Of a DNA stretch of 64,000 nucleotides, positions 1,652-32,012 are shown piece by piece. This DNA is from Tsukamurella spumae. Lineage in GTDB: Bacteria; Actinomycetota; Actinomycetes; Mycobacteriales; Mycobacteriaceae. Where the stretch lies: NCBI RefSeq assembly GCF_012396015.1, contig NZ_JAAXOQ010000012.1, positions 62,001 through 126,000 of the forward strand. Reading direction: 5' to 3'. Positions within the stretch are counted from its first letter, which is position 1; every line of letters starts with the position of its first letter. A model generated the notes under the pieces. It was given only the letters and a program-made list of their open reading frames with translations, searched no databases and was not told the DNA's origin. Position numbers and translations under genes: made by a program.

Positions 1652-2584
1652 TTAAAGTACGTCCGCGATTAGGTAGTACACGTCAGTTGAGAAGATCGTC
1701 TGGGCATACTTGTCGTTGTCACGCACGAAGTGGCCTTTTGGATCTCGCTCTTCCCACTTGTCGACGTAGTTGTATCCATCCTTGACGAGCGTGTAGCCGC
1801 CGTTGACAGACATCAGCTCAGGTCGCGGAGTGATGTACGTGAAGAGCACGTTGTCGCCCCACAGATCAACTGCAGTCGGAGCGACATCAGGGTTCTCAGT
1901 ATCACCAAGGAAGCCTTGAGCTTTCGCGATCTCGATCGACTGGATCCCGTACGGCGCAAGCACGCGAAGGATCTCGTCCTTGCCGATGATGCTCGCCTGG
2001 ACGTACTTGAAGCGCTCGATCACTGCTGGGTGGTTGATCAGCGCCAACCAAGCGTCGTAGCCGATCGCCATCGTGTTCGGCAGTTTGAAGGCAGCCTTCC
2101 GGAACTGCTTCAACGCATCGATGAGCGTCGCGATTGGGTCAACACCGGAGACAGTGAACTTCGAGCCCGACGTCAGCGTGATGTTGTTCGTGATGATATT
2201 CGGATCAGTCAGGATCTTCGCCCCCGAGTACTCCTCAGCAAGGGCAGTCTGCTCCTTGAGGACCAAGAGCGCCGCGCTTTCCGTCTCGAATGGTGAGTCG
2301 TACTGGCTGTACTGGTCTTTGTCGACCCAGATCTTGAGTGCCTTCTCAGTGAGCGGTCCCCACACGTCGGTGTGACGGGTCAGGTTGATCTCACGAGTGA
2401 GCGAGCGGCCAGTACGGGAAAGATCCTGCTGGATCACGAGGGCTTCTTTCCCCCAGATCGGGAACACACCCGAGTCCTTCTTAACTGATACACGTGGCAG
2501 AAGCTTCGGGATGATCAGAGAGTCATCCTCGTTCTTCCACAGTTGGCTCATCGTCGTGAGCTGTTGGTCTACATAAGGTTCCAT
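1652..2584 (-). CDS. Major capsid protein
   Basis: A 310-residue protein of the length and arrangement of HK97-fold capsid proteins of Mu-like actinophages. The N-terminal arm (residues 1-60) is followed by a helical spine region and by the segment around residues 155-200 (PNTMAIGYDAWLALINHP) that I associate with this capsid family. It sits after the protease/scaffold gene and the decoration gene, the standard head-gene order. No strong Shine-Dalgarno lies at normal spacing before the first ATG (GAAAGGA is 17 bases away), so a start at the Met at residue 12 is possible. Confidence 0.8.
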   Translation of the reverse strand: MEPYVDQQLTTMSQLWKNEDDSLIIPKLLPRVSVKKDSGVFPIWGKEALVIQQDLSRTGRSLTREINLTRHTDVWGPLTEKALKIWVDKDQYSQYDSPFETESAALLVLKEQTALAEEYSGAKILTDPNIITNNITLTSGSKFTVSGVDPIATLIDALKQFRKAAFKLPNTMAIGYDAWLALINHPAVIERFKYVQASIIGKDEILRVLAPYGIQSIEIAKAQGFLGDTENPDVAPTAVDLWGDNVLFTYITPRPELMSVNGGYTLVKDGYNYVDKWEERDPKGHFVRDNDKYAQTIFSTDVYYLIADVL

Positions 2585-8335: not shown

Positions 8336-9157
8336 TCAATATTCGTAGTAGACGCCGCACCGGCATCGCACATGCCCTGCCGGTAGCAGGACTTCGGTCC
8401 CGTCCGCGAGTCTGAACGTCTCGTCGATCTTGCGCTTCTGGCCGTTGATCGGACCGCACCGCTTCTCACACGCACCCGGTAGTGACTCCCAGGTCTTCCG
8501 TTTCGCCCCGGTCTCGGTCGCGTACTGGTGCTGGCCGATCGCGTAGGCGTTGACGCTCTCCGTCTGCGCGATCATCTCGGCGCGCACCGGGTTGTTGATG
8601 ATCGATCGCAACCGCTCGATGGCCTCAGACGTTGTCTCGCCGCGCGTGAGCGATTGTTTGATGCTCAGACGGATCTTGTTGCGGGTCGTATCTGTCACGC
8701 CGCTTACGAGCCCTGCGATGTGCTCCTGCGCGGCTAGCGCAACGAAGTCCTGGATGCTGTCGATGTGAAGGGGCATCTTGTAGCGCTTGAGCGCGGCGTC
8801 TACACCGATCGTCGCGATGAGACTGATGGCCTCGATGATCGCTCTGGTGAGGTCGAGCGCCTCTCCCTTCCACACGGCGTCCTTGCCGCCAGGTATGAGA
8901 TCGTCCTCGTGCGTTGCAGCCTGGACCTTCGGCTGTGCCGCGACCTGCCGCTCGTATCCCGCCCAGTCAACGTATCGATCGACTCGATGAGACAGCGAGT
9001 ACAGGTACTCCTCGGCATCGCCTTGAAGGTCAGCTTCAGCCTGGACCAGTGCGCGGAAGGCCGCTCGATCACTCTTGTACCCCGGCGCCCACTCTTCCGA
9101 TGCTCGTATGCCGGCGCGCACAGTTGCGAGCGCTTCAATCCTTGTCTGTCGGTCCAT
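8336..9157 (-). CDS. Mu gpF-like head morphogenesis protein
   Basis: A 273-residue minor head protein. The C-terminal part (residues 175-273) has the features of the Mu gpF / SPP1 gp7 family: TSEAIERLRSIINNP, AEMIAQTESVNAYA, WESLPGACEKRCGPINGQ, and a Cys-containing end VRCRCGVYYEY. These proteins sit by the portal inside the head. The gene overlaps the portal gene by 23 bases and ends 8 bases from the convergent membrane-protein gene, so the accessory block was inserted just after it. Confidence 0.75.
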   Translation of the reverse strand: MDRQTRIEALATVRAGIRASEEWAPGYKSDRAAFRALVQAEADLQGDAEEYLYSLSHRVDRYVDWAGYERQVAAQPKVQAATHEDDLIPGGKDAVWKGEALDLTRAIIEAISLIATIGVDAALKRYKMPLHIDSIQDFVALAAQEHIAGLVSGVTDTTRNKIRLSIKQSLTRGETTSEAIERLRSIINNPVRAEMIAQTESVNAYAIGQHQYATETGAKRKTWESLPGACEKRCGPINGQKRKIDETFRLADGTEVLLPAGHVRCRCGVYYEY

Positions 9158-10526
9158 AGAGGCTCTTCTCCAGCAGACGCTTCATGGTGCGTGAGGCAGA
9201 GAGAAAGCGAGCCCGCATCGCGCGGTTGGCCTTCACGTCATCGGCTGGTGCGTCACCGATCTCCTGGTCCTCGTCAGCTTCCTGCTCGCCGTCGGCCTGT
9301 GCTGGTGCGGGCGTCCCATCAACTACGCGTCGCTCTTCGCCCTCTTCCGCCTTCGGTAGTCGGATCAACTTGCGCAGGTACGCCTCGTCCGCATCGCTCG
9401 GCGTGAGCACCTTGGCGTCGATCAACGTCTTCACCACACTCGATAGAGTCGTCAGGTCTTCCTTGCCGACCTGTTCAGCAACAACAGTCGGGTACTCTGT
9501 CACGTTGAAGTTCGAGTCGACGAGCTGCTTCACGACCTGCTCAGTCACCTCGGCAGCGATGTTGTCAGCAACGGCCTTGTTCGCAAGGTCGAAGAGGCGA
9601 CTCTGGTCCCCTGACGCGGCGAGAGTGCCGGACGAACCTTGTGCACCGATCTCGAGCCACTGAGCGAGCACGTTCTTGCTGATCTGCCGGTCGTGATGGT
9701 TCAGGCTCGGCTCGATGTCCTTGAGCGTGCCCGCCTTCATATCCATGAACTCGATCGCCCACCCCTCGGGCTGGCGGATGAACGCTTCCTCGTTCGCACG
9801 TAGGTTTCGCGCGGCCTCTTCCGCCCGCTCGATGTCCTTGCCGTCTGCGTTAGACGGATGCTGTATCCGGACCACGCCCAGCGCCTGGCGCTCGTGGCCG
9901 ATCGCATCGATCTTGTAGAGGTTCTTCATGATGTACCAGTGCTGGTACGCCGAACGTAGGACGCTCACACCCTCGTAATTGTCGCCCTCCTGCTGATTCG
10001 TGATGACTAAGAGTTGGTCCGCGGGGATGCTGAACCGCTCGCCCTGATGAGTCCACTGCGTGACGCCAGGCTTGCCGTCCTCCTGGACCCACTTCGAGAT
10101 CGTGGTCTGCTTCCTGAACGCGAGCTTCTTGACCACCACGCGAGGGATCCCGTCAACCTCCTGCACACCCCAGACGCACTCGAACACAGCAAAGCCGAAG
10201 TCCAAGTGCGTCAGTGCTTCCGAGAGAAACGCGCGCCACTTAAGGATCTTCGTCAGGTTGTACTCGACGAACTTGGCGACCTCTTCGTCCTTCGGGTCGC
10301 TCGACGCAGCCTGCACGCCCCAAACGGCAGAGATGACGGGCAGCTTGATCGCGGAGAGCACAGCACGAACGGTCGCGTTGCTGCGGCGCATCTCATCGTA
10401 GATCTCATACGCTCGCCGGCCGACGAGGTCCTGGTTGTATTCCTCCCCCGTGATAAAGCCATCGAATATGTTAGTGCCGGATTTGCCGATCTCTTTTGAT
10501 CTTTGTTTGGAGAGACTCTTCGCCAT
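9135..10526 (-). CDS. Portal protein (DUF935 / Mu gp29 type)
   Basis: A 463-residue portal protein, the 12-subunit ring for DNA entry at one head vertex. The order of features fits the DUF935 family: an N-terminal clip region, YEIYDEMRRSNATVRAVLSAIKLP (residues 38-61), repeated aromatic beta segments, and SLNHHDRQISKNVLAQWLEIG in the stem. The last 70 residues are acidic and Glu/Asp-rich, with no clear counterpart in Mu. It lies directly between terminase and gpF-like genes. Confidence 0.8.
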   Translation of the reverse strand: MAKSLSKQRSKEIGKSGTNIFDGFITGEEYNQDLVGRRAYEIYDEMRRSNATVRAVLSAIKLPVISAVWGVQAASSDPKDEEVAKFVEYNLTKILKWRAFLSEALTHLDFGFAVFECVWGVQEVDGIPRVVVKKLAFRKQTTISKWVQEDGKPGVTQWTHQGERFSIPADQLLVITNQQEGDNYEGVSVLRSAYQHWYIMKNLYKIDAIGHERQALGVVRIQHPSNADGKDIERAEEAARNLRANEEAFIRQPEGWAIEFMDMKAGTLKDIEPSLNHHDRQISKNVLAQWLEIGAQGSSGTLAASGDQSRLFDLANKAVADNIAAEVTEQVVKQLVDSNFNVTEYPTVVAEQVGKEDLTTLSSVVKTLIDAKVLTPSDADEAYLRKLIRLPKAEEGEERRVVDGTPAPAQADGEQEADEDQEIGDAPADDVKANRAMRARFLSASRTMKRLLEKSLYGPTDKD

Positions 10527-10542
10527 ATATCTTCAATGTAAA

Positions 10543-11952
10543 CTAGAACCGCTTATTTAACAATCCTGACGTATGCGGCTTATCCGGACGATTGTTCTCT
10601 GATTTCGACTCGTACGCAAAGCGCTGGACTGGACGGAGGGCGACGTAGAGACCCATAATTACCGCGTCAAAGATGTCAGGGCTCACTCCAAGTCGCTTCT
10701 TGATCTGCTTCTTACTCTCGACCTTCAGCACCTTGTCTGTGACGTCAAAGTTGTGCATCATCGCCTCCTTCTGCAGCTCTTTGAGGTACGGGCATCCTTT
10801 GTAATGCTTGATGATTGCTAGCTCGAGGCCACGAGCGTAGAGGTAGACCATCTGCGACCGAAGATCGGCGAAGTGGAGTGGCGCCGGCGCGACGCCAGGC
10901 AGCATCACCTTTGGATCAGGCGCACTACCGCTCATGAACTCGAACGGGTGAAGACGACGAGTCACCAGATCCCCGACGACACCACCCCCGATGCCGACAG
11001 CGTCGACCGCCAAGTCAGCTATCCCGTACCCGTTATCGACCGCATCCGCTTCGAGCCACTCGGCCTGCTCAGCCGTCTCCATGCGCTCGTTCTTCGCCTT
11101 CACCACCGCAAGGTCTGCGACGGTCAGTCCGTACATCAGGCTACGGGTCGAGCGGTCCTCGCCCTTCCACGCCACGTCGTAGCCTGCGGACCGCTTCGCT
11201 GCTGCGTCGAGTTCGTCGACCAGGGACGATGCGAAGTGGCGCGATTTGAACAAGGACGCCGACTCGTCCGAGTAATCCCAGTTGTTACGCATGAAGCGCT
11301 CGACCCACCACTCGGGGTTCGTCATGAGCGCATCGATGTCGCCCGGTGACTGCCACGAGTCCTCGATACCGAACTCGATCACCCTGATACGAGCGGGCAG
11401 TGTCCCATCTTTCCACCGGTCGTAGATGTGTTCCTTGAGCCAGCCGTCGTTCGGGTTGGCGGTGATCACCGAGAGCGACGGCTGTCCATGCTCGTTCTTG
11501 CGCCCCTTACGAGAAGTCGCTTGCAGGTACATCTCGAACTCGAACTCGTCCACCTCATCCAGGTGGTTGCCGGTAGCGTTGATTCCCTTGATCTTCTTGC
11601 CGCCGCGGTCCTTCGTCGCGTCAGCCTCACGGAACGGGATCGTCGAGCCGTTGGGGAAGGTGATGCGGTACGGCTTCTGCGTGTAGGCGAAGTCTTTGCC
11701 CTGGACCAGTCCCATGCGCTCCGCCATGTCGAGGTAGCTCGGGATAACCGTCTCCACCGCTGTGGACTGGTTCACACGGAACACTGGCCAACGGGTCTTC
11801 GCGAAGGCGTGGCAGATCGAAAGCACCAGGTGAGCGGCGATATCTGTCTTGCCGGTGCCGACCGCCCCGATCAGTACTATCGTATCGACCGTCGGGTCAT
11901 TCGCCGCCTCGATGACCTCAGCTTGCTTCTGCTTGAGCTTCAGCGGCTCCAT
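10543..11952 (-). CDS. Terminase large subunit
   Basis: The DNA-packaging motor, 469 residues. The N-terminal ATPase has a Walker A at residues 29-36 (GAVGTGKT) and a Walker B-like NHLDEVDEF near residues 130-138. The C-terminal half is the RNase H-like nuclease, with its first acidic strand in SAGYDVAWKGED and a later one in LAVDAVGIGGG. It overlaps the small terminase gene by 35 bases, or more if the longer start is used, and precedes the portal gene, the classic packaging order. Confidence 0.9.
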   Translation of the reverse strand: MEPLKLKQKQAEVIEAANDPTVDTIVLIGAVGTGKTDIAAHLVLSICHAFAKTRWPVFRVNQSTAVETVIPSYLDMAERMGLVQGKDFAYTQKPYRITFPNGSTIPFREADATKDRGGKKIKGINATGNHLDEVDEFEFEMYLQATSRKGRKNEHGQPSLSVITANPNDGWLKEHIYDRWKDGTLPARIRVIEFGIEDSWQSPGDIDALMTNPEWWVERFMRNNWDYSDESASLFKSRHFASSLVDELDAAAKRSAGYDVAWKGEDRSTRSLMYGLTVADLAVVKAKNERMETAEQAEWLEADAVDNGYGIADLAVDAVGIGGGVVGDLVTRRLHPFEFMSGSAPDPKVMLPGVAPAPLHFADLRSQMVYLYARGLELAIIKHYKGCPYLKELQKEAMMHNFDVTDKVLKVESKKQIKKRLGVSPDIFDAVIMGLYVALRPVQRFAYESKSENNRPDKPHTSGLLNKRF

Positions 11953-12400
11953 CGTTGTCGTGACCTCGCGGCTTAATCTTGCTGATCACCAGCGGGGCAA
12001 CCTCGACGCGCTCGCCGTCCGAGACGAGGTCAATCTTGGTCCCATAGCCATACTTCGCGAGCCAGTCGCGCGCGGCGTGCCGTGCCTGATGAGGGTTGTT
12101 CGGGTTGAAGGCCTCGATCATGGCGGTCGTGACGATCGCCTTCATCGCCGTGCCCTGGAACTCAGGGTCCGCCTTCTTCACCTCGTCCTGCAGCTTGCCG
12201 CTTAGGCGCTCGATGAAGCGCTCATCGTTGAGCAGGTCCTGGATCGTGCTCGAGAGACTCTTTCGACCCTTGGGCCTGCCAGCGGGGTTACCGGACTGCC
12301 CCGCCTTGAACTGGGTCTTCGCACCTATGTTCGGATCGAACTCGCCTGATCCGAGCCTCTTCGTCGCCTGTTCTTCGCCTGATGCTGATGTATCTGCCAT
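11918..12400 (-). CDS. Terminase small subunit (DUF5681-like)
   Basis: A 160-residue DNA-recognition partner of the large terminase. The segment FKAGQSGNPAGRPKGRKS near residues 28-46 is typical of DUF5681 proteins, often encoded before large terminases. A Met six codons earlier is in frame, but MADTSASG is the more natural start. It is the first gene of the late operon, and about 106 bases upstream the opposite strand begins the Pycsar-like pair, so the two units are divergent. Confidence 0.7.
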   Translation of the reverse strand: MADTSASGEEQATKRLGSGEFDPNIGAKTQFKAGQSGNPAGRPKGRKSLSSTIQDLLNDERFIERLSGKLQDEVKKADPEFQGTAMKAIVTTAMIEAFNPNNPHQARHAARDWLAKYGYGTKIDLVSDGERVEVAPLVISKIKPRGHDNDGAAEAQAEAS

Positions 12401-12506
12401 ATGCAACCATTTATGCACGCCAGGGCGGTTTTGTGAAGAGGCAGGTCGTGTCAGCGGTGCCGAGTACGATCAGTAGGTCAACACTCGTCCGCCGAAGGGT
12501 TCTGCT

Positions 12507-13247
12507 TTGTCACTACTCGATGACATCGATACTCAGATCGACAAGACGATTAACACGTCGATGTCGATCACGACGCGATCTCAGAACTCGGAGGACCAAT
12601 CAGTCCCCAAGCCAGAGGACCTAGCCTACAACGGCGGCAAGATTATTCGAGCGACGTATCTCTATACCGATATGCACGACTCATCCAAGCTGGCAGCCGA
12701 CGCTTCACAGGAGAGTGCCGCAAGGGTATTCCGTGGCTACCTAAACGTCAGCACGAAGGTCATCCGCTCACATGGCGGGCACATAAGGAGCTTCGACGGC
12801 GATCGGGTCATGGGCGTATTTACCGGGGCCGATCAACAGGATCGCGCAGTCAAATCGGCCATGATGATCAAGTGGGCTGTAGCAAACAAACTAACGCCCG
12901 CCATTCACGCATCAATCCCTGAACTACAGGACGCCGGATGGACGTTGCGCCAGTCAAGCGGAATTGCAGTGGGTGATACGCTACTAGCCCGAGCAGGGTT
13001 CCGAGACAATAATGACATGATCTCGATTGGTGCTGCACCAAACCTCGCCGCGAAACTTAGTGACATTCGCAATACCGGTGACGACGCAAAATTCGAGACA
13101 TTAATCGGCAAAGGTGCATATTCAGGACTATCGGATAGCTGCAAGATCTCTGATGGTAAGAATATGTGGCAAGGGACCTATTCGATAAACCTCGGAGGGA
13201 AGAGCTACAGCTACTACCGAACGTCGTACCATTGGAAGGTCTCGTGA
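12507..13247 (+). CDS. pycC: Pycsar-like nucleotide cyclase
   Basis: A 246-residue, soluble class III nucleotidyl cyclase. The two metal-binding aspartates are seen at D55 (YTDMHDSSK) and D99 (GGHIRSFDGDRVMGVF). The transition-state Asn lies in SIGAAPNLAAKL near residue 179. It starts at TTG with AAGGG six bases upstream. Cyclases of this compact single-domain type paired with a small membrane protein form Pycsar systems, in which phage infection triggers cCMP or cUMP synthesis. The effector gene overlaps it by four bases (GTGA), so the pairing is structural and not chance. Which nucleotide is made cannot be read from the sequence. Confidence 0.82.
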   Translation: MSLLDDIDTQIDKTINTSMSITTRSQNSEDQSVPKPEDLAYNGGKIIRATYLYTDMHDSSKLAADASQESAARVFRGYLNVSTKVIRSHGGHIRSFDGDRVMGVFTGADQQDRAVKSAMMIKWAVANKLTPAIHASIPELQDAGWTLRQSSGIAVGDTLLARAGFRDNNDMISIGAAPNLAAKLSDIRNTGDDAKFETLIGKGAYSGLSDSCKISDGKNMWQGTYSINLGGKSYSYYRTSYHWKVS

Positions 13248-13738
13248 CGGCACCCGACCCCATAGACACCGCCTGGAAGATCCACGCCGCCTTGGCGGAC
13301 TGGACCGGCAAGGTCGATACGAAGGCGTCTTTCGCCCTCACCATTGAGTCCGCCCTTCTCGCAGGTGTCGTCACCCTCTCTGCGGACGGCCGCCCACTGA
13401 ACGGGCTCACAGGATGGGCCTCAGCCTGGTATTGGGTAGGCGTATTCGCGCTGGTGGTTGGAGTCATCTGCGCAGGGATGGTCGTGCGACCGCGCCTCCG
13501 ACGTGGGGCGCTCGAGGTAGAAGCCGAAAACAACTTCATCTACTTTGGGCATCTTCAGCACCTCACGACTGAACGAATCGCCGAGCACCTCGAACAGACG
13601 CCGTTGCTTCCTGTTCTCTCGAAGCAACTGTCGGAGATGAGCAAGATTACCTGGCGGAAGCATCGCCTAGTTCAGCTCTCCTTGAGCCTTGCTCCGTTCG
13701 GCGTATTCTGCCTGTTCGTCGCCTCGACGTATGGCTAG
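13244..13738 (+). CDS. pycTM: Pycsar-like transmembrane effector
   Basis: A 164-residue membrane protein starting at the GTG that overlaps the cyclase stop. It has three membrane helices at about residues 28-47, 58-81 and 143-162. The helix-entry motif WTGKVDTKASFAL, the central ENNFIYFGHL segment and WRKHRLVQ before the last helix are the conserved marks of the PycTM (DUF5706) effector family. On sensing the cyclic pyrimidine these effectors damage the membrane and stop cell growth, which limits phage spread. The frame is open further upstream, but that would run deep into the cyclase gene. Confidence 0.85.
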   Translation: MTAPDPIDTAWKIHAALADWTGKVDTKASFALTIESALLAGVVTLSADGRPLNGLTGWASAWYWVGVFALVVGVICAGMVVRPRLRRGALEVEAENNFIYFGHLQHLTTERIAEHLEQTPLLPVLSKQLSEMSKITWRKHRLVQLSLSLAPFGVFCLFVASTYG

Positions 13739-13793: not shown

Positions 13794-14312
13794 CTACGAC
13801 GCGTTTACGTCTGGTCCGTCTCCCCGTGTGGTCCAGTCGGAGTAGGCGCACAAGTACGTCCCTTCTGCCAACCGACCATCGGGTTTTGTGTCTGGATCGC
13901 CGTAGAAGCCGACGACCCACCTACTGTAGGTCGAGTCGGATTCTCTCTTTGAAGGGTCTGCCTTCTCGAAGAGCTTCTCCCAGCTAGTCTGCAAAATATC
14001 GATCTTATCCTCTGGGATCTCCGTAATAGTCCCACCAGAGGGGCCTAGTTCCAACGCCGATGGCTCTTTAATCCCATATTTGTCTGGGCTACTAACACTC
14101 TGTTCGTAGACGAACCGAGGGCCACTCTTCGAGCCCCTACCAATCTGCCACGAAGACGCTGCCGCCTCCTTGCAACTCGCCCCGAACAGCACCTCCTTGC
14201 CCGCCTTCGCCTTCGTGGCAGGCGCGCCACCGTCGTCGGTGCTGCTTGAGCAGCCCGAGACGAGGAGGGCGGCGGCGAGGAGGGGCGCGGAGATTGCGTA
14301 CGGCGTTCTCAT
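13794..14312 (-). CDS. Small lipoprotein, paralog 1 of 3
   Basis: A 172-residue lipoprotein with signal peptide and lipobox LVSGC (cysteine near residue 21), then an Ala/Lys-rich linker. The first 51 residues are identical to those of the copy at 15,127 and the last 45 are nearly so; residues 52-90 differ completely. From LGPSGGTITEIPEDK onward it instead matches the copy at 24,426, so the genes have exchanged segments. A -10 box (TACACT) ends six bases before the ATG, giving a leaderless transcript. Function is unknown; phage surface lipoproteins often block superinfection. Confidence 0.75.
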   Translation of the reverse strand: MRTPYAISAPLLAAALLVSGCSSSTDDGGAPATKAKAGKEVLFGASCKEAAASSWQIGRGSKSGPRFVYEQSVSSPDKYGIKEPSALELGPSGGTITEIPEDKIDILQTSWEKLFEKADPSKRESDSTYSRWVVGFYGDPDTKPDGRLAEGTYLCAYSDWTTRGDGPDVNAS

Positions 14313-14318
14313 GGGCGG

Positions 14319-14324
14319 AGTGTA
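14319..14324 (-). promoter_or_regulatory. Leaderless -10 box of lipoprotein 1
   Basis: TACACT on the minus strand, with six bases between it and the ATG, implies transcription starting at or beside the start codon. The same sequence, including about 45 bases upstream, stands before the second lipoprotein at 15,649-15,654. No -35 box at 16-18 bases is evident. Confidence 0.5.
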
Positions 14325-14379
14325 GCAATGTGGACAAGGGGATGGTGTCGGTCAAGCGAGGGGTTTTGCTGGCACACCG

Positions 14380-14847
14380 CTAGAGTCGCCCGAAGTGCGC
14401 CACCACCAGCGCGCACCCCTCGTCGTCCTCGGCGACCCTGTAGCCCACCTGTCGGTAGTCGCCGGTCAGTACCTCTTCGTGCACCGGGCTCTTGATCCAA
14501 GCTTGCACTACGTCGAAGCCGTCATCGAAGCAGCGAGACAGGTTCTCCCCCGCCTTGTCATACGCGTAGCCCGCCTCGGTGAAGAAGTGCCAGGGTTCAG
14601 TGCCGTCTGGCGCGTTGTGATCCCAGTAGCCCTCTCGCGCCATCTCATCCGCCTTAGCCTGGGCGCTCTGGTTCAGCCGGCGATCGACTGCAAGCTCTGG
14701 CAGCCCCTGCGAGGCGCGATAGCCGTTGATCCGGTCCGTCATGCCCGCAAGCGGCTCAACGTCCTCCTGCGTTGCCTGAAGGGCGAATGCGGTCACGATA
14801 AGTGCGGCGGTCACCAACGCCAGGATACCTATTCTTCCAATATTCAT
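14380..14847 (-). CDS. Secreted CAP (SCP/PR1) domain protein
   Basis: A 155-residue protein with one N-terminal hydrophobic helix (residues 6-24) and a CAP domain: RINGYRASQGLPEL at the start, DHNAPDG, then GENLSRCF and VVQAWIKSPVHEEVLTGDYRQVGY. The ends match CAP family consensus blocks; bacterial CAP proteins are extracytoplasmic and mostly of unknown activity. It is driven by the operator-bearing promoter at 14,879-14,908 with a leader containing ACGGAGA. Placed between two copies of a lipoprotein gene, it is probably part of the same surface-modifying cassette. Confidence 0.8.
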   Translation of the reverse strand: MNIGRIGILALVTAALIVTAFALQATQEDVEPLAGMTDRINGYRASQGLPELAVDRRLNQSAQAKADEMAREGYWDHNAPDGTEPWHFFTEAGYAYDKAGENLSRCFDDGFDVVQAWIKSPVHEEVLTGDYRQVGYRVAEDDEGCALVVAHFGRL

Positions 14848-14878
14848 TTATGAGTTCTCCGTTTATTAAGTTGTGACT

Positions 14879-14908
14879 CCATTATGCGCTTATGGTTAAA
14901 TAAGTCAA
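14879..14908 (-). promoter_or_regulatory. Operator-bearing promoter A (CAP-domain gene)
   Basis: TTGACT and TAATGG with an 18-base spacer. The 17-bp sequence CCATAAGCGCATAATGG, an imperfect inverted repeat, covers the -10 box. Promoters B (17,835-17,864) and C (19,733-19,762) share the same boxes, spacer and operator, which points to one repressor controlling all three. Confidence 0.75.
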
Positions 14909-15126
14909 GTACCTATTTACAGAATCGCACTATTGTGTTATATTTAGAATTAAGATGATAGTCAAAAGAAACAGCCGAATCGACATAAATCAAACTGCAA
15001 CCGTACTTGTGCGGCCGATCATCGTTCGGGCAATCGGCAATGTAGATCGATTCTTTGAGACACAAGCAGGAACACGGCAGAGTCACTAAGCCACACGGCA
15101 TTCGCGACAGTCGCAGGCCGGATTCC

Positions 15127-15642
15127 CTACGACGCGATTACGTCTGGTCCGTCTCCCCGTGTGGTCCAGTCGGAGTAGGCGCACAAGTACGTCCCTTCTG
15201 CCAACCGGCCGTCAGGCTTCGTGTCTGGATCGCCGTAGAAGCCAATCTGCCAACTGCTATACGAGGAATCTGTCTTCAGTTTTTCAGGGTCTGCCTTCTC
15301 AAAGAGCTTCTCCCAGCTAGTCTGTAGCGCGTCAATCTTGCTGGCAGGAATATTCAAGATCGTGCCCCCGTGCGCGCCCATTTCCAGGGCGGAAGGCTCC
15401 TTTATGCCACCGTCTTCCGGTGATTGTTCACCCAGTGCTACCAGTTTTCTCGGATCAATGTCGTTATTAGCTCCGAACACAGCGTCGTGCGCCGCCTCCT
15501 TGCAGCTCGCCCCGAACAGCACCTCCTTGCCCGCCTTCGCCTTCGTGGCAGGCGCGCCACCGTCGTCGGTGCTGCTTGAGCAGCCCGAGACGAGGAGGGC
15601 GGCGGCGAGGAGGGGCGCGGAGATTGCGTACGGCGTTCTCAT
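15127..15642 (-). CDS. Small lipoprotein, paralog 2 of 3
   Basis: A 171-residue lipoprotein with the same signal peptide, lipobox and first 51 residues as paralog 1, a different middle (HDAVFGANNDIDPRK to GGIKEP), and a closely related C-terminal half (ASKIDALQTSWEKLFEKAD; GFYGDPDTKPDGRLAEGTYLCAYSD). Upstream bases are also copied, including a -10 box TACACT at 15,649-15,654 six bases before the ATG. About 280 bases separate it from the CAP gene; they are AT-rich and hold only that gene's promoter and leader. Confidence 0.75.
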   Translation of the reverse strand: MRTPYAISAPLLAAALLVSGCSSSTDDGGAPATKAKAGKEVLFGASCKEAAHDAVFGANNDIDPRKLVALGEQSPEDGGIKEPSALEMGAHGGTILNIPASKIDALQTSWEKLFEKADPEKLKTDSSYSSWQIGFYGDPDTKPDGRLAEGTYLCAYSDWTTRGDGPDVIAS

Positions 15643-15910: not shown

Positions 15911-16196
15911 CCCGCACCTCCTGGTACCACTCCAGTACGCGCTGTCGCTCGTCCAACACGTGCTCGCGCTCAGCCCCGTCCACGACAAGCGACCGGATCT
16001 CAAGATCGCAGACTCGCATGGCGAGCCGTGCCAGCTTTCGCTCATGCGTCTCGTCCAGGCCCAGCTCACTCGCGATCCACTCGTACGCCCGCCGGTTTCG
16101 GTGGTAGTACTGCATCAATGCCTTGCGCCGATCGAACTTGCGAGGAGCTTCACGCTCCTTGGACCGCCGTGGGCGGAATGGGATCAACTCGCCCAT
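15879..16196 (-). CDS. Uncharacterised 105-residue helical protein
   Basis: A highly charged, mostly helical protein (MGELIPFRPRRSKE start; Arg-rich N-terminus, Glu-rich C-terminus) with no motif I recognise. It overlaps the ArdC-like gene by 13 bases and the zinc-ribbon gene by 32, so it belongs to the same operon. Confidence 0.6.
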   Translation of the reverse strand: MGELIPFRPRRSKEREAPRKFDRRKALMQYYHRNRRAYEWIASELGLDETHERKLARLAMRVCDLEIRSLVVDGAEREHVLDERQRVLEWYQEVRDEDDPTTPGA

Positions 16197-17008
16197 GCCT
16201 GCTCCTTTGGAACTCGGCCGGCCTCGATGATCGAATCTGCCGCCTTGAAGATCGCTCTCACGTCTCCGTCAGTGGGTCGCTCCCCCGCAGACCAGGTCTG
16301 TATGTACGCACGACTCACACTTGCCATCTCAGGCGTCAGTAGCCCGAGCTCGTTCGTGACGAGGTGCGCGACCGCCTCAGCCCCAAGCTCCATTGGACCG
16401 CGATGGCGAAGGTAGTTGGCGTGGGCGTCTGAATCTGTGTGTCCTAGCTCGATGTGGCCAAGCTCGTGGAAGAAGGTCTTCGCCGGGTACTTCGCCGCCG
16501 GGTTGATCGCGATCTCCCTACCGGCGCTGTAGCCCTGAGTGTTCGCTACCTGAGTCTGAAATGCCACCTCATGGATTGCGAGAGCAGCAAGCGCGCGACT
16601 CCTACTCCACTCCGGCAACTCGATCTCTGGTAGTGGTTCGCCCTCCGTCATCGACACCGGGAACACGCTCTTGACCGGCATGAACCGCTGGATCTTCTTG
16701 TCCTCGCCGGTCTCTTGATCGACTTCTCCAGTCTTCACGAGGATCGGACGCTGAATGTAGAACGCCGACGCTCCCTTCGTCACGTGACGATCGACGGCCT
16801 TCCACCCGGCGAACGTCGCTACGGGCTCGACCGGACAACCCTGCATGAGTAGGAACGCACAGTTCCGAGTGCTGTACTGGCGGAAGCGGCGATACGTGTC
16901 ACCCAGGGAGCCTTCAACATTCAGGGCGTGAGTGAGCAGGTCCGACCAGTCAGGGTGCGCGAGGTGCCCGGGGACCTCCGCTGGGGCACGGTTACGACGA
17001 CCGGCCAC
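16184..17008 (-). CDS. ardC: ArdC-like antirestriction protein
   Basis: A 274-residue protein with the two parts of the ArdC family. Residues 18-135 form the ssDNA-binding domain (YRRFRQYSTRNCAFLLMQ, FAGWKAVDRHVTKGASAFYIQRPI). Residues 140-270 form a zinc-metallopeptidase-like domain with HELGH at 181-185. ArdC proteins protect incoming DNA of plasmids and phages from host restriction. It starts at GTG directly after the upstream stop. Transcription should come from promoter B, so it shares control with the other operator-bearing units. Confidence 0.82.
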   Translation of the reverse strand: MAGRRNRAPAEVPGHLAHPDWSDLLTHALNVEGSLGDTYRRFRQYSTRNCAFLLMQGCPVEPVATFAGWKAVDRHVTKGASAFYIQRPILVKTGEVDQETGEDKKIQRFMPVKSVFPVSMTEGEPLPEIELPEWSRSRALAALAIHEVAFQTQVANTQGYSAGREIAINPAAKYPAKTFFHELGHIELGHTDSDAHANYLRHRGPMELGAEAVAHLVTNELGLLTPEMASVSRAYIQTWSAGERPTDGDVRAIFKAADSIIEAGRVPKEQAWAS

Positions 17009-18837: not shown

Positions 18838-19563
18838 TTAGTTAGTCCACAACTCATGAAGGGTTTCGGTAGTCCTCACGTCGAACAGCTTGCGGGCGCT
18901 CTCGGGTATCTCTCCGATGATGTGGCGCAGTTCGCTCGCCCGTTCCTCATCTATAGCTACAAACACGATATATGGGAAGTGGCCGCCAAACATGTCCACA
19001 TCGCCCCAGAAGCGGTGCGCGTGCCGATAGCGGGCAATCTTATCGGTGATCTTCTGCCGACGTTCTGTCGCCATGTCAATCTCTAGCCATACCCTCCGCC
19101 TCACCCCACGCGGCAAGTCAAAGCACACGTACAGGTCGGGCCGGATATCTGCCTGCCCTACCGTGAACCACGTGTCTGGCTCGGTGATCGTCTCTTGGAG
19201 CCGTAGATTCCTCTCACGTTCAGCGTGCACAAGCTGCACGTATGACTCAGTGATCTGTAGGCGGTGTCGATCAAGGACCCGGTACGGCTGATACTTGCCC
19301 TCACGTCGCAGGTAGTTCCATCCCTTGCGGTCGAGCTGGTAGACGTACTGGCCGGAGCCGTGTGCCCATCCCCCAATCGGTCGCTCCCCCATACGTCGCA
19401 GCATGTTGGTTTTGACGAGTCGAACCAAGGCACGCTGGCACGGCGTGTTGGACGCGTTCTCATGGAACAGGATCGACTCGATCTGCCCGGATGCGACCTG
19501 CCCAAACCTCCCCACCAGGGCGATTATTTGGGCGTCACGGGGCGACAAATTCATAAGACACAT
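18838..19563 (-). CDS. Replication-relaxation family protein
   Basis: A 241-residue protein. The N-terminal 80 residues form a winged helix (LSPRDAQIIALVGRFGQVASGQIESILF; CQRALVRLVKTNMLRRM). Residues 130-210 contain ADIRPDLYVCFD and VWLEIDMATER, the spaced acidic and Glu residues of a PD-(D/E)XK-like fold. This matches the replication-relaxation family (PF13814) found on actinobacterial plasmids and conjugative elements, often beside VirD4/TraG-like ATPases such as the one at 25.7-28.0 kb. Met at residue 4 (MNLSPRD) is an alternative start. Its exact activity is not known. Confidence 0.7.
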   Translation of the reverse strand: MCLMNLSPRDAQIIALVGRFGQVASGQIESILFHENASNTPCQRALVRLVKTNMLRRMGERPIGGWAHGSGQYVYQLDRKGWNYLRREGKYQPYRVLDRHRLQITESYVQLVHAERERNLRLQETITEPDTWFTVGQADIRPDLYVCFDLPRGVRRRVWLEIDMATERRQKITDKIARYRHAHRFWGDVDMFGGHFPYIVFVAIDEERASELRHIIGEIPESARKLFDVRTTETLHELWTN

Positions 19564-24425: not shown

Positions 24426-24941
24426 ATGAGAACGCCGTACGCAATCGCCGCGTCCCTCCTCGCCACAGCTCTCCTCGTCTCGGGCTGCTCAAGGAGCACC
24501 GATGACGGTGGCGCACCCGCCACGAAGGCGAAGGCGGGCAAGGAGGTGCTGTTCGGGGCGAGCTGCAAGGAGGCGGCGCACGATTCCTTAGAGGTCCGAG
24601 TTCCACGAGATTCCCAAGATCCGCGATCAATCTTTGCGCTTAGTCAGAAGCAGCCGGAAAAGTTCGGATTCAAAGAACCTACCGCACTGGAACTAGGCCC
24701 CTCTGGTGGGACTATTACGGAGATCCCAGAGGATAAGATCGATATTTTGCAGACTAGCTGGGAGAAGCTCTTCGAGAAGGCAGACCCCGAGAAGATGAAG
24801 ACTTCAATCTACCGTGATTGGGTCGTTGGCTTCTACGGCGATCCAGACACGAAGCCTGACGGCCGGTTGGCCGAGGGGACGTACTTGTGCGCGTTTCAGA
24901 ACTCGCCAGACGGAAACGGACCAGGCGCAAACGGGTCGTAG
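24426..24941 (+). CDS. Small lipoprotein, paralog 3 of 3
   Basis: A 171-residue lipoprotein with the family signal peptide and lipobox LVSGC. The linker and GKEVLFGASCKEAAHD are shared with paralog 2, while LGPSGGTITEIPEDKIDILQ is shared with paralog 1; residues 53-80 are its own, and the last 20 also differ. It stands alone on the plus strand between two hairpins, so it is an independent unit expressed without the early operon. Confidence 0.75.
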   Translation: MRTPYAIAASLLATALLVSGCSRSTDDGGAPATKAKAGKEVLFGASCKEAAHDSLEVRVPRDSQDPRSIFALSQKQPEKFGFKEPTALELGPSGGTITEIPEDKIDILQTSWEKLFEKADPEKMKTSIYRDWVVGFYGDPDTKPDGRLAEGTYLCAFQNSPDGNGPGANGS

Positions 24942-25705: not shown

Positions 25706-28000
25706 TCATCCCTCGCTATCGAAAGGCTCGATTGGCTCATCCCCGCCGAGCGCACCGTCTCTGTCCTGCTGTTCCGTCACTCCGCGAGTAGCGCGCACCT
25801 CTTGGTCGACCTGGGCCTTGCTCTTCGCGTACCGGGCGTTGGAGTGCCAGACCGCCCGCTCCCCCAGTCCGTACCCATCCGCTTCGGGGATGGTCTTCAA
25901 GCTGAGCACTGGGCTCTGCCCCTGCTCGGTCATAACCCGGCCGACAGCGTTGAACTGCTCAAGGTTCTGCAGCAGCTCCTTGTTGACGTTGCGGTCTCCG
26001 AACTGATTCGCAAGCACTCCTGCGGCCTCCGGACCACAGGTGAAGGTGAGCTGAGTGCGAGCGTTCGTGCCGATTGCGTATCGAAGGTCTCTGCTCAATC
26101 GCTCCGGATACTGTGTCGCGAGCACCAGGCCGAGGTTGCGTTTTCGTGCAGTTGCGAGTGCATCGATCACTAGGCCATCGATCTTGGTGAACATGTGACA
26201 CTCATCGATCAGCATGAAGTTTGCGAGCGCAGGGCGGATCGTCTTCGCTGAATCCCAGAAGATGCCGACGAGCATCGATCCGACAACCGAGGCGACCGTC
26301 TCGGGGACTCCCTTCAAGTTGACCAAGACAATCTTGTTCTGCTCCAGAGCATCTCGCGGGTTGAAAGCTGATGTCGGCTGGTTGAGCATGTAGCGACTCT
26401 GCACTGGTAGCAGCAGCTCGTACAGACGGCGGTAGACCGGTTCGAACTCCCTGAGGCGACCTTCTCTGTTACGACCGCCCATATCCGATCGCCATTTCTT
26501 CATGAAGGATCGAACCTCTACGTCCGTGATCGAATCATCGATGTGCCTCGCCCACACCACGTCATCGCGCCGCGTTGGGTTCAGGTAGGTCGGGAGATCT
26601 GCGATGGTGCTGCCAGGCACTGAACCGATCGCTCTAAGCGCGTGCCCGAGTAGGACGCGAGTGTTGATCGACTGGTTCTCGTAGATGCTCTCGAAGATCG
26701 TGACAAGACGGCTCGCGACGTGTTCAGGGCTTTCCAAGTCGAGGTAGTTCAGGCCTACAAAGTTTGTGTCGTCGGCATAGTCGAGGACGATCACGTCCTG
26801 CAGTCGGTGCGGTGGCACGTGGGCGAGCACCCGCGTGATCAAGTCGCCATCTGCTTCGAGCACGAGGAGACCGTGGCCTCCGGCTATAAGTTGCTCAGCC
26901 ATCCCAACAGCGACAGTCGTCTTTCCTGTTCCGTTCGAGCCGAACAGAGCCGCGTGCATGATCATTGCGCCCGGCGTCAGCGCGACCTTCCGCTCACTGC
27001 CGGGCAGTGTCGACCGACCAATCACGATGCCATCACGAGGAACGACCTCTGGGACCGGGAAGTGCCGCGTATACCGCCGTGCCAAGCCAGCGACGTAGCC
27101 CTTGCCGAGCGGCCAGGCGAGGGCAGCGGTTAGCTCGGTGGCCGTCATCTGCATCCGCATCTGGTTTGGTGTCGATGCCAGCGCGAGCTGCTCCCCCGCC
27201 GAACCTGCTCGTTGCCACTTCGCCTTGATCGACGTATGAGGGCCGCTCTCTGCCCGCAGTGCGCGAAGAACGAAGCCGACCCGCGCCTCTGCAGCCTGGG
27301 CGCCGCCGAGACTGCTCGCCGCGATTCGGCCGGCGACGAGGTAGTTCTGTTCGTTCAGCTTGGAACGACGAGTTGAGACCTCATCCGACGTTGCGAAGTT
27401 CAGGCCGAGCAACGAGTCGACGAGATTGAACTTGGTGCTTGTCGCGCCCGGTTGAGGCAGCTTGTTTCGACTTGTGGGCGTGATGACCCACTGCAGGACA
27501 ATCGTTTCGCCATCACGGGTGCCCTGCATTGATGAGAGGATGCGACTCGACAGATCGGCCGTGTCCGCAATCTGGAGCATCCTGTCGGGAGCCGACATTG
27601 CGAGATCCACGAGTGCCGTTGGTTGCCAGTCCGTGTCACTGACCTCGATCGGCTGGTAGTCGAGCCCTGGCACCGCCGAGACGAGTTGAGCGATCACATA
27701 GGCGGAATCAGGACTTGGAATCCGGAGCCTATGCCGGATCACACCGTCTTCTGCGACGACCTCGAATACTGTTGTCGGCACTGCAGTTTGGAGCATGCCT
27801 CGTGGCGCGACACCTCCGAGCGCGTAGATGAAGCTGACTACCTGCTCAGGGGCTACGTCGGTCGGGAAGGTGACTCCATACGTCACTCGCTGCCGGTCGA
27901 GTGCTTCCTGCTTTCGCCCCAATGCCCTCACCACCTCTCTGCCGATGAAAGACGTTGCCAATAGAGAAGCGGCGAGGGTGAGGATGAAGAGGTAGACCAT
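25706..28000 (-). CDS. VirD4/HerA-like DNA transfer ATPase
   Basis: A 764-residue P-loop motor. One N-terminal membrane helix (residues 4-20) is followed by a long accessory region. The ATPase core has a Walker A at about 354-362 (GSNGTGKTT), a Walker B near residue 595 (NFMLIDECHMF), and the LVLATQYPERLSRDLR sensor stretch of TraG/VirD4 coupling proteins and HerA-type ATPases. In conjugative elements such proteins move DNA to the secretion channel. It has small membrane-protein genes upstream and an accessory gene downstream. No relaxase or VirB-like channel gene is visible in this element, so a different DNA-pumping role remains open. Confidence 0.78.
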   Translation of the reverse strand: MVYLFILTLAASLLATSFIGREVVRALGRKQEALDRQRVTYGVTFPTDVAPEQVVSFIYALGGVAPRGMLQTAVPTTVFEVVAEDGVIRHRLRIPSPDSAYVIAQLVSAVPGLDYQPIEVSDTDWQPTALVDLAMSAPDRMLQIADTADLSSRILSSMQGTRDGETIVLQWVITPTSRNKLPQPGATSTKFNLVDSLLGLNFATSDEVSTRRSKLNEQNYLVAGRIAASSLGGAQAAEARVGFVLRALRAESGPHTSIKAKWQRAGSAGEQLALASTPNQMRMQMTATELTAALAWPLGKGYVAGLARRYTRHFPVPEVVPRDGIVIGRSTLPGSERKVALTPGAMIMHAALFGSNGTGKTTVAVGMAEQLIAGGHGLLVLEADGDLITRVLAHVPPHRLQDVIVLDYADDTNFVGLNYLDLESPEHVASRLVTIFESIYENQSINTRVLLGHALRAIGSVPGSTIADLPTYLNPTRRDDVVWARHIDDSITDVEVRSFMKKWRSDMGGRNREGRLREFEPVYRRLYELLLPVQSRYMLNQPTSAFNPRDALEQNKIVLVNLKGVPETVASVVGSMLVGIFWDSAKTIRPALANFMLIDECHMFTKIDGLVIDALATARKRNLGLVLATQYPERLSRDLRYAIGTNARTQLTFTCGPEAAGVLANQFGDRNVNKELLQNLEQFNAVGRVMTEQGQSPVLSLKTIPEADGYGLGERAVWHSNARYAKSKAQVDQEVRATRGVTEQQDRDGALGGDEPIEPFDSEG

Positions 28001-30211: not shown

Positions 30212-30643
30212 ATGGACTACATATCGATCGCCCTCGGCTGGATACTTGTGGCGGCAGTAGCTGGATACTTCATACGTAGAGCAGCAAAGAAGGTGGGTCA
30301 AAGGGCGGACTCCAATAGCAGCCCAATCGGGTACGCTCCCGACGGACAGCCTGTCTACCAGGTAGTTGGCTATACGCCCGACGGACAGCCGGTTACGTCA
30401 GATCGAGTCGTCGGCGGTCGTCCCTACAGCCCGCATACCAACTCGCTAGCGGTCGTTGCTCTTGTTCTCGGATTCGTGGCTGGACCCCTGGCGATCCCCG
30501 TCGGGCACATTTCTCGGGCACAGATTCGCAGGACAGGAGAGCAGGGCGGAGGTATGGCGCTCGCTGGTCTGGTGTTGGGCTATCTGTCGGTGACGGCACT
30601 CGTCGCGACTGCGGTCACGTTCGCAATCCTCTCGAACGTCTGA
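30212..30643 (+). CDS. DUF4190-like membrane protein
   Basis: A 143-residue membrane protein. It has one N-terminal helix (residues 5-22), then two near-repeats (GYAPDGQPVYQV and GYTPDGQPV) and a pair of C-terminal helices with LGFVAGPLAIPVGHISRAQIRR between them, the typical DUF4190 arrangement. TATGGT lies eight bases before the ATG, so a leaderless transcript is likely. It is the last phage-side gene, about 80 bases from the junction with comM. Confidence 0.65.
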   Translation: MDYISIALGWILVAAVAGYFIRRAAKKVGQRADSNSSPIGYAPDGQPVYQVVGYTPDGQPVTSDRVVGGRPYSPHTNSLAVVALVLGFVAGPLAIPVGHISRAQIRRTGEQGGGMALAGLVLGYLSVTALVATAVTFAILSNV

Positions 30644-31644
30644 CTTGAACACTCGTACCTGACATTCGCATCGTCGCCGCGATATCCTGCAGTCCCTACC
30701 GTGGGGTGTCTTTGATCCTTCGACTCGTCGAGGAACAGCACGCCCCGGTGCGCGAGTGAGACCGCGCCGGGCCGGGCCAGGCCGCTGCCCCCGCCGACCA
30801 ATGCGCTGACCGACGAGGTCTGGTGCGGTGCGACGAAGGGCGCGACGGTCACCAGCGGCCGGTCCGCGCGCAGGCTCCCCGCGATCGAATGGATGGCGCT
30901 CACCTCGAGGGCCTCGCGCCGACCGAGTGGGGGCAGGATCCCCGGCAAGCGGGACGCCAGCATCGTCTTCCCGATCCCGGGCGGTCCGGTCATCATGATG
31001 TGGTGCGCGCCCGCCGCGGCCACCTCGAGGGCGTACTTCGCCTCCGGCTGCCCCACGACATCGCCGAGATCCGGCACGTCGGGATCGGGCCCGTCGACGG
31101 GGAGCGGCCCCGGGGTCGCCAACGCGCCCTCGCCCGACAGCCAGGCCACGACCTCCGCCAGGTGCGCGGCGCCGAGGACCTCGATGCCGTCCACGAGCCC
31201 CGCCTCGTCGAGGTTGGCCAGTGGGACGACGGCGCGCCCGAATCCGGACTCCTTGGCCGCCAACACCGCCGGCAGCACGCCGCGCACCCCCCGCACGCGC
31301 CCGTCGAGGGCCAGCTCACCGAGCAGGACGGCCCCCTCGACGCGGTCCGACGGTGCCTTCTCCGCGGCGAGCAGGATGGCGACGGCCAGCGGCAGGTCGT
31401 AGACGGACCCCACCTTCGGCAGCGTCGCCGGCGACAACGCGACCGTGACCCGGGTATCGGGGAACTTCATCCCGATGTTCACCACGGCCGCGCGGATCCG
31501 GTCGCGGGACTCCTTGAGCACCGTGTCGGGCAGCCCCACGAGGTGCACCGCGGGGAGCCCCGCGCCGATGCAGCCCTCGATCTCGACCACGGCACCGTCG
31601 ACCCCGGTGATCGCGACGGAGTGCACCTTGCTCAGCGCCGACAT
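30580..31644 (-). pseudogene. comM: comM truncated by the prophage, hybrid ORF
   Basis: From ATG 31,644 the first 307 codons are a normal ComM/YifB (Mg-chelatase-like AAA+) N-terminus: the Lon-like domain, MMTGPPGIGKTMLASRLPGILPPL (Walker A) and LAHRGVLFLDE (Walker B). Homology ends at about 30,724. The frame then runs on through phage DNA for 47 codons to a stop at 30,580. The C-terminal 200 residues of the usual roughly 500 are missing, including the rest of the ATPase, so branch-migration activity in natural transformation should be lost. The missing part should lie at the other end of the prophage. Confidence 0.88.
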
Positions 31645-32012
31645 CACGCCACCCCCGCCCGGTACTCGAGCGTGACCGGGCCGCCCGGCGGCGTGAAGAC
31701 GGACGCCACGTCGATCCGGACCTGCGCGAAGGCCCCCTCCTTCTCGGCCAGCCACCGCGAGGTCAGGGCCCGCAGCTGGGCGACCTTGCGGGGCGTGACC
31801 GCGTCGAAGCCGGTGCCGAAGGCCGTGCCCGATCGCGTCTTCACCTCGACGATCGCGAGCAGCCCGTCCGGAGCGCGAGCGATCACGTCCAGCTCGCCGC
31901 GCAGGCCGCCGCCCGAGTACCGCCAGTTCCGATCCAGCACCGTCCACCCGCGGTCGGTCAGGAAGTCGCAGACGACGTCCTCGCCCACACGCCCCGTCTC
32001 GTTGTTCCCCAT
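31644..32012 (-). CDS. yraN: UPF0102 family protein YraN
   Basis: A 122-residue PD-(D/E)XK-like protein with GELDVIA and AIVEVKTRSG, the UPF0102 signature, and VAQLRALTSRWL after it. MGNNETGR gives the family's usual length; an upstream Met is possible. It shares one base of stop and start with comM, as in other Mycobacteriales. Confidence 0.88.
   Translation of the reverse strand: MGNNETGRVGEDVVCDFLTDRGWTVLDRNWRYSGGGLRGELDVIARAPDGLLAIVEVKTRSGTAFGTGFDAVTPRKVAQLRALTSRWLAEKEGAFAQVRIDVASVFTPPGGPVTLEYRAGVA

Follow-up and report, generated by a model that had tools for sequence, protein, structure and literature searches.

We identified a two-gene cassette on the plus strand of a 64,000-nucleotide stretch of the Tsukamurella spumae genome (contig NZ_JAAXOQ010000012.1; the whole stretch is called the window here). 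The first gene (12507..13247, TTG start) encodes a predicted uridylate cyclase of 246 amino acids, PycC, and the second (13244..13738, GTG start) encodes a membrane effector of 164 amino acids, PycTM. The genes overlap by four bases, GTGA at 13244-13247, and coordinates, strands and overlap are all as given in the first-pass annotation, which had described a Pycsar-like pair carried in a prophage. That observation is confirmed, as both genes belong to Pycsar families by PADLOC and PF18967. The best PADLOC PycC match (2.4e-67) spans residues 1-245 of the cyclase and 13 PADLOC PycC models match it in total (E up to 0.014), while a Pfam search of the same protein returned no family above cut-off. 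Among solved structures the best match is 7r65 (3.5e-28), the clade-B cyclase BcPycC (PMC11224242).

The identity of the effector had been made to depend on a match to PF18967, and this family matches at 7e-20 (71.9 bits; cut-off 27.2), as does the PADLOC PycTM model at 1.1e-42. PF18967 has four matches in the host genome (E up to 10), and only the window effector is above cut-off. Kyte-Doolittle windows give three hydrophobic stretches at residues ~28-46 (the weakest, 1.6), 64-82 and 142-160; judged by hydropathy, the earlier proposal of three membrane helices is reasonable. Several of the weaker-matching PADLOC effector models carry a 2TM description. The cassette consists of a PycC-family cyclase with the two metal-binding aspartates of class III cyclases and an adjacent effector with the PycTM domain (PF18967), and PycC adjoins PycTM on plasmids and in genomes as well.

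The metal aspartates named at first, D55 and D99, align with aspartates of 7r65 and are kept in all 62 distinct PycC-like proteins, window included. This set leaves out the duplicates L001, L012, L058, L059, L062, L065, L066 and L068 and the first cyclase of L067. The two residues are 44 positions apart, as are the matching aspartates of 7r65 and the metal pairs of EaPycC (D102/D146) and AnPycC (D62/D106) (PMC11224242). The asparagine region also stands, with N179 kept in 58/62 proteins (exceptions are L023, L025_221, L026 and the short L043_8483). UTP recognition in BcPycC involves Y50, D94 and R97 (PMC11224242), and their counterparts, counted along the 7r65 alignment, are Y53, D97 and R100 of the window protein. 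This base-contact set is kept in every protein but L041_6052 (61/62). With a single cyclase domain and Y/D/R at the BcPycC base-contact sites the protein resembles clade B, a likeness drawn from these residues and 7r65. Since the UTP-contact residues are kept, and cCMP is made only by clade E according to PMC11224242, the predicted messenger is cUMP and not cCMP.

The cassette lies in an element of ~42 kb, a prophage with a serine integrase, that splits a host gene which we take to be comM/yifB. GC content is ~0.58 in the element and ~0.70 in its flanks. The integrase, at the left end, matches phrog_95 (2.5e-97) and PF00239 (4.9e-29). On the minus strand are genes for a major head protein (1652..2584; phrog_1005, 3e-43), a Mu F-like head protein (8336..9157; PF04233, 1.6e-09), a portal protein of the Mu type (9135..10526; PF06074, 9.1e-52), the large terminase subunit (terL, 10543..11952) and the small terminase subunit (terS, DUF5681, 11918..12400; PF18932, 2e-10). 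The Terminase_6N match of terL is weak (0.024, below cut-off) and its homologues occur in viral contigs; terS is named from its place before terL. A maturation protease and a tape-measure protein are also matched. The prophage setting originally proposed therefore holds, with portal, capsid, terminase, tail and serine-integrase genes around the cassette, and so does its divergence from the terminase genes, which occupy 10543-12400 on the minus strand with the pair on the plus strand. However, the pair is not inside the head-gene module as had been stated; it adjoins the head-gene operon, outside its limits.

The right end of the prophage is within the interrupted comM/yifB (30580..31947, minus strand), where the reading frame departs from the ComM sequence after ...LFLDE, near 30724 of the window as estimated from the frame. 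The C-terminal ComM part is found at the opposite prophage end, at a distance of ~42.4 kb and outside the window (C4, ~50328; these positions are estimated). Integrase, structural genes and a split host gene characterize an integrated temperate phage. No att core repeat was identified between the prophage ends, where the longest shared word is 9 bases, at ill-fitting places. A promoter scan of the cassette, restricted to sigma-70-type sites, gave no promoter-like site. A terminator scan gave one terminator-like site, within the terminase genes and not above shuffles, and RNA folds of both cassette flanks are not notably more stable than shuffles (z 1.69 and -0.35). The prophage also contains plasmid-transfer-like genes, a HerA/TrwB-like ATPase of 764 aa (25706-28000) and a replication-relaxation gene (18838-19563), ~6 kb apart. 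Three paralogous lipoprotein-like genes (MRTPYAI...) that match no Pfam family are found in the same prophage at 13794-14312, 15127-15642 and 24426-24941, and are possible exclusion factors.

The location of the cassette is a variable slot bounded by terS and an ArdC-like gene, the right anchor (16184..17008, minus strand; ArdcN 9.4e-05, just above cut-off), whose homologues are 44-70% identical in 23 viral records. Further cargo of the slot (13794..15642, minus strand) consists of the first two of these paralogues, lipoprotein-like by our own reading and 80% identical over 578 bp of DNA, and a CAP-domain gene between them (14380-14847; PF00188, 3.2e-17). Searches of viral contigs with PycC returned 11 records, with L007 and L008 at 77% identity. 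The arrangement of the window, with Pycsar genes flanked by terS and the ArdC-like gene, recurs in L007, L008, L021, L022 and L028; in L009 and L016, type III restriction-modification (R-M) systems occur upstream of terS. PycC-found records carry PycC by construction, so we also searched by the ArdC-like gene, blind to cargo. This search gave 26 loci, 23 of them at no less than 44% identity. In 14 of the 23, the 10 kb fetched include terS, on the side where it is expected; L071, on the contig of L016 with terS ~10.7 kb away, is the fifteenth slot record. The slot count leaves out the other 8/23, in whose loci terS was not recognised (L080-L085, L090 and L091, of which L085 has terL only). It also leaves out L010, a fragment without the ArdC-like anchor, and L093-L095, which are distant (23-33%).

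The slot of these 15 viral records holds Pycsar in five, R-M in five and nothing recognised by PADLOC in five. The Pycsar slots are L074, L075, L076, L079 and L088, on the contigs of L022, L021, L028, L008 and L007, respectively. Because L074/L075 and L079/L088 share nearly the same Pycsar DNA (98%), the five represent three distinct cassettes. The R-M systems are unrelated to one another: type IIG in L070, type III in L071, type II in L077, a BstXI type in L086, and a D12 methylase with an HNH nuclease in L092. PADLOC found no defence system among the scanned, larger slot ORFs of L072, L073, L078, L087 and L089, where the cargo consists of lipoprotein-like and small membrane-like genes and one homing endonuclease. 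A portal search added a type III R-M system (L103), an XhoI-type R-M system (L098) and a methylase (L107) upstream of terS, with no ArdC-like anchor shown.

Known defence genes thus occupy the slot in 10 of these 15 records, with a conserved phage gene on either side, the arrangement of a prophage defence hotspot. In the 10 of 15 records compared (L071, L074, L078, L087 and L088 were left out), 27 slot ORFs reach 150 aa; 14 of these match defence models and one further ORF matches a homing endonuclease. Outside the slot in the same 10 records at most 11 of 146 ORFs match, homing endonucleases included. The slot matches were called by PADLOC, with Pycsar called by local HMMs, and the outside scan was an unselected PADLOC run. 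An inside/outside test with slot-derived queries (20/20 inside) was discarded as circular in favor of the unselected scan. The comparison of related prophages that the first-pass annotation had called for shows a recurrent defence slot at this position, which strengthens the defence interpretation; that interpretation is supported at the level of sequence. Elsewhere, in the unrelated prophages of L026 (3116-6705) and L027 (3570-7076), PycC adjoins putative terminase genes by our own reading; the L027 prophage is P2-like, and in L026 PycC is again divergent from the terminase genes.

Closely related records differ in what the slot contains. L073 and L074 share 95.4% identity across the 828 bp that close with the end of the ArdC-like gene and 96.8% across the 623 bp that start 21 bp before terS, the comparison covering these two flanks and the slot between. 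That slot is 949 bp in L073, with two small membrane-like genes, and 1318 bp in L074, with PycTM and PycC. In L021 and L022 the DNA of the Pycsar genes and of the ArdC-like gene is 98% identical, but terL and the portal gene differ. Together these comparisons indicate that the cassette moves relative to both neighbours. The terS proteins of L007, L008, L021 and L022 are 22-30% identical to that of the window. The left border of the slot is a conserved non-coding block directly upstream of terS (12401..12440, minus strand), ~38 bp long and ending at or near the terS start codon. Of 20 related loci, 10 match the block with 4-16 mismatches of 36 and 10 do not match it at all. Among 392 background windows the best match likewise has 16 mismatches, which makes the matches of L077 and L103, at 16, uninformative. 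The block looks like a promoter (TTCACA, 16 bases, CATAAA).

The closest terminase relatives seen are in viral contigs, with terL identities of 82% (L092), 78% (L009 and L016), 75% (L010, a fragment) and 73% (L021); only L021 among these carries Pycsar. The terS homologues before terL in L009, L016 and L092 are 62-81% identical. In the phage collection searched, 11 records match terL, most of them annotated as terminases and the best at 26% identity, the portal has 383 matches (~28-31% identity among those listed), and the ArdC-like protein has no match. These values indicate that the collection holds no close isolate of the phage family, the known relatives of which are all assembled contigs. 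L011, L018, L019 and L020 were rejected as members, being too distant. The terminase is found in 1/16 genomes of the same genus, its own, and a relative of it in 2/397 genomes of the same order, its own included, so that the prophage is rare in the order. A contig scan with a terminase alignment, limited to two short patterns, found no relative. In L007 (2079-4597) terL is interrupted by a transposase-like ORF and in L008 (3198-4597) it is read in two overlapping frames; on these grounds both prophages are probably defective. Outside annotated records, genes were called with a simple script.

The same effector is found with different cyclases. PycTM is 90-100% identical among L007, L008, L021, L022 and L028, and the different cyclases that precede it are 36-62% identical to each other. 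DNA identity of L008 to L021, L022 and L028 is 92-95%, starting within ~10 bp of the PycTM start and continuing through the ArdC-like gene. L007 and L008 each combine one effector with two cyclases, which belong to different clades, the window's being one of these; metal and base-contact residues are complete in both. The window cassette has a single cyclase. Two same-strand cyclases with one PycTM also occur in 11 of 28 PycC loci from named genomes (L030, L031, L032, L034, L036, L039, L042, L043, L045, L046 and L048), all of them among the 18 actinobacterial loci of the 28. One cyclase of L043 is short (178 aa). A separate genome search gave two close matches in 4/7 genomes, two of which are apparently L048 and L043 again. 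In L046, L039 and L025 the order is cyclase-effector-cyclase, the two cyclases flanking one PycTM and not in tandem.

In our cyclase tree the partners fall in different groups in 11/11 pairs, and the window's clade (17 rows, support 100) is represented in eight of them. This tree was made by a quick method with SH-aLRT only, from the relatives found here and without L041_6052, which lacks the base-contact residues; 21 of its 58 inner branches are open. Because the partners are in different groups, the pairs look like combinations of diverged cyclases and not fresh duplications. The two cyclases may serve different triggers or form a heterodimer. We tentatively suggest, with slightly less than even confidence, that the cyclase of actinobacterial Pycsar serves as an exchangeable sensor. 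Phages would keep one PycTM and trade its cyclase or stack two from different clades; a single killing switch would then answer to various phage triggers or to a cyclase heterodimer, and the slot would be one site of this re-wiring.

The two gene families, the intact catalytic and base-contact residues, the prophage with its conserved anchors and the turnover of cargo are directly established. From them we consider it likely that the clade-B-like Pycsar cassette is accessory cargo of an integrated tailed phage, held in a defence slot that is refilled by recombination, and that it acts by cUMP/PycTM abortive defence. The cassette would be expressed in the lysogen while the late genes are off. 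Infection by another phage would switch on PycC, which would convert UTP to cUMP; binding of cUMP by PycTM would damage the inner membrane, and the cell would be killed or stopped before the invader spreads, protecting the lysogen. Through recombination in its conserved flanks the slot would receive different defence systems across the phage family. Several results weigh against this reading: the sigma-70-type scan gave no promoter, five of the 15 slots show no recognised defence gene, the Pycsar slots reduce to three distinct cassettes, only L021 among the closest terminase relatives seen carries Pycsar, and the family is represented by assembled contigs.

If the cyclase instead made cAMP, cGMP or cCMP, the pair would be a signalling module and not a defence system. 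The fold of PycC is that of class III cyclases, and an alignment with photoactivated adenylate cyclases is also obtained (1.1e-05). However, the E-value of 7r65 is better than that of the best adenylate cyclase by more than 20 orders of magnitude, the UTP-contact residues are kept, and the residues of the cCMP-making EaPycC, F100/R142/Q144 (PMC11224242), differ from those of the window protein. We regard such a product as very improbable. That the pair is silent or decaying, left behind in a dead prophage, is hardly more probable. The broken terL of L007 and L008 indicates that some members are probably defective, and the sigma-70-type scan found no promoter; in the window, nevertheless, both cassette genes and the examined prophage genes are open, no catalytic residue is lost and the proteins of the cassette are conserved.

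The pair might also be a true Pycsar system whose main role is to serve the prophage itself, through superinfection exclusion of close relatives or retention of the element, over defence against unrelated phages. The cassette is on a mobile element beside two lipoprotein-like paralogues, and by our own reading of the sequences a lipoprotein-like gene is the main recognisable slot ORF in L078 and L087. Phage lipoproteins can act in exclusion. However, actinobacterial plasmids carry relatives of PycC at 61-67% identity, and no phage gene is annotated in the plasmid stretches examined, which argues that the cassette is independent of this phage, and unrelated R-M systems occupy the same slot. Service to the prophage as the main role is therefore unlikely, though it retains a real share of the probability. 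The plasmid pairs, on Rhodococcus ruber pmega_3 (67%) and Hoyosella subflava pAS9A-2 (61%), are among the closest PycC/PycTM pairs and have the same gene order and four-base overlap as the window, but they lie among transfer or R-M genes. On pAS9A-2 (L014, 9316-25304) the record annotation places Pycsar near a type I R-M system, DndB, VapC and an abortive-infection gene.

Both Pycsar in prophages and prophage-borne defence hotspots have been described before. In the Pseudomonas syringae complex 8% of Pycsar systems are prophage-encoded (PMC13182921), and a PycC-like cyclase is found in two Clostridioides phages (PMC12774648). These are also inside prophages, but the passages available from the two papers give no slot, cyclase exchange or actinobacterial phage. 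PADLOC reports Pycsar in actinobacteria (PMC11719660, PMC12542688), and the word Pycsar is absent from the main text, as available, of two actinobacterial surveys (PMC10482375, PMC10023795). The system of BcPycC from Burkholderia cepacia LK29 (PDB 7R65; PMC11224242) shares with the window pair a class III cyclase, the same metal and UTP-contact residues and a partner with the PycTM Pfam domain. However, the window pair is prophage-borne in a variable slot, and its relatives exchange the cyclase or carry two per PycTM. Clade A PycC has two consecutive cyclase domains in one protein (PMC11224242), which recalls the two cyclase units per system in L007, L008 and the actinobacterial genomes. Unlike clade A, the pairs of the L007/L008 type are two separate genes of different clades with their own residue sets, and the window has one.

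The P2/P4 phage defence hotspots of E. coli, beside cos (PMC9122126), are likewise small loci flanked by two conserved genes of the phage, and their defence systems turn over at a high rate. The slot described here differs from them in phage family and phylum, in its anchors (the ArdC-like gene and terS) and in its cargo (Pycsar and R-M). The passages of the literature searched contain no description of the ArdC-like/terS slot, of cyclase exchange or of two-gene cyclase pairs, a limited negative. Taken as a Pycsar pair the window cassette is ordinary; its greater interest is as one of the alleles of a phage defence slot in which the cyclase can be exchanged.

For the trigger of PycC, phage components or pH have been discussed as possibilities (PMC11224242). 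The natural alleles, with a near-identical effector and diverged cyclases, are a ready set for finding this trigger by a swap of the cyclase alone, and phages that are closely alike but differ in whether they carry the cassette belong to the same set. In an actinobacterial family of phages that has no close isolate in the phage collection searched, the slot shows R-M and cyclic-nucleotide defences at one place, and its anchor genes can be used for finding further defence systems.
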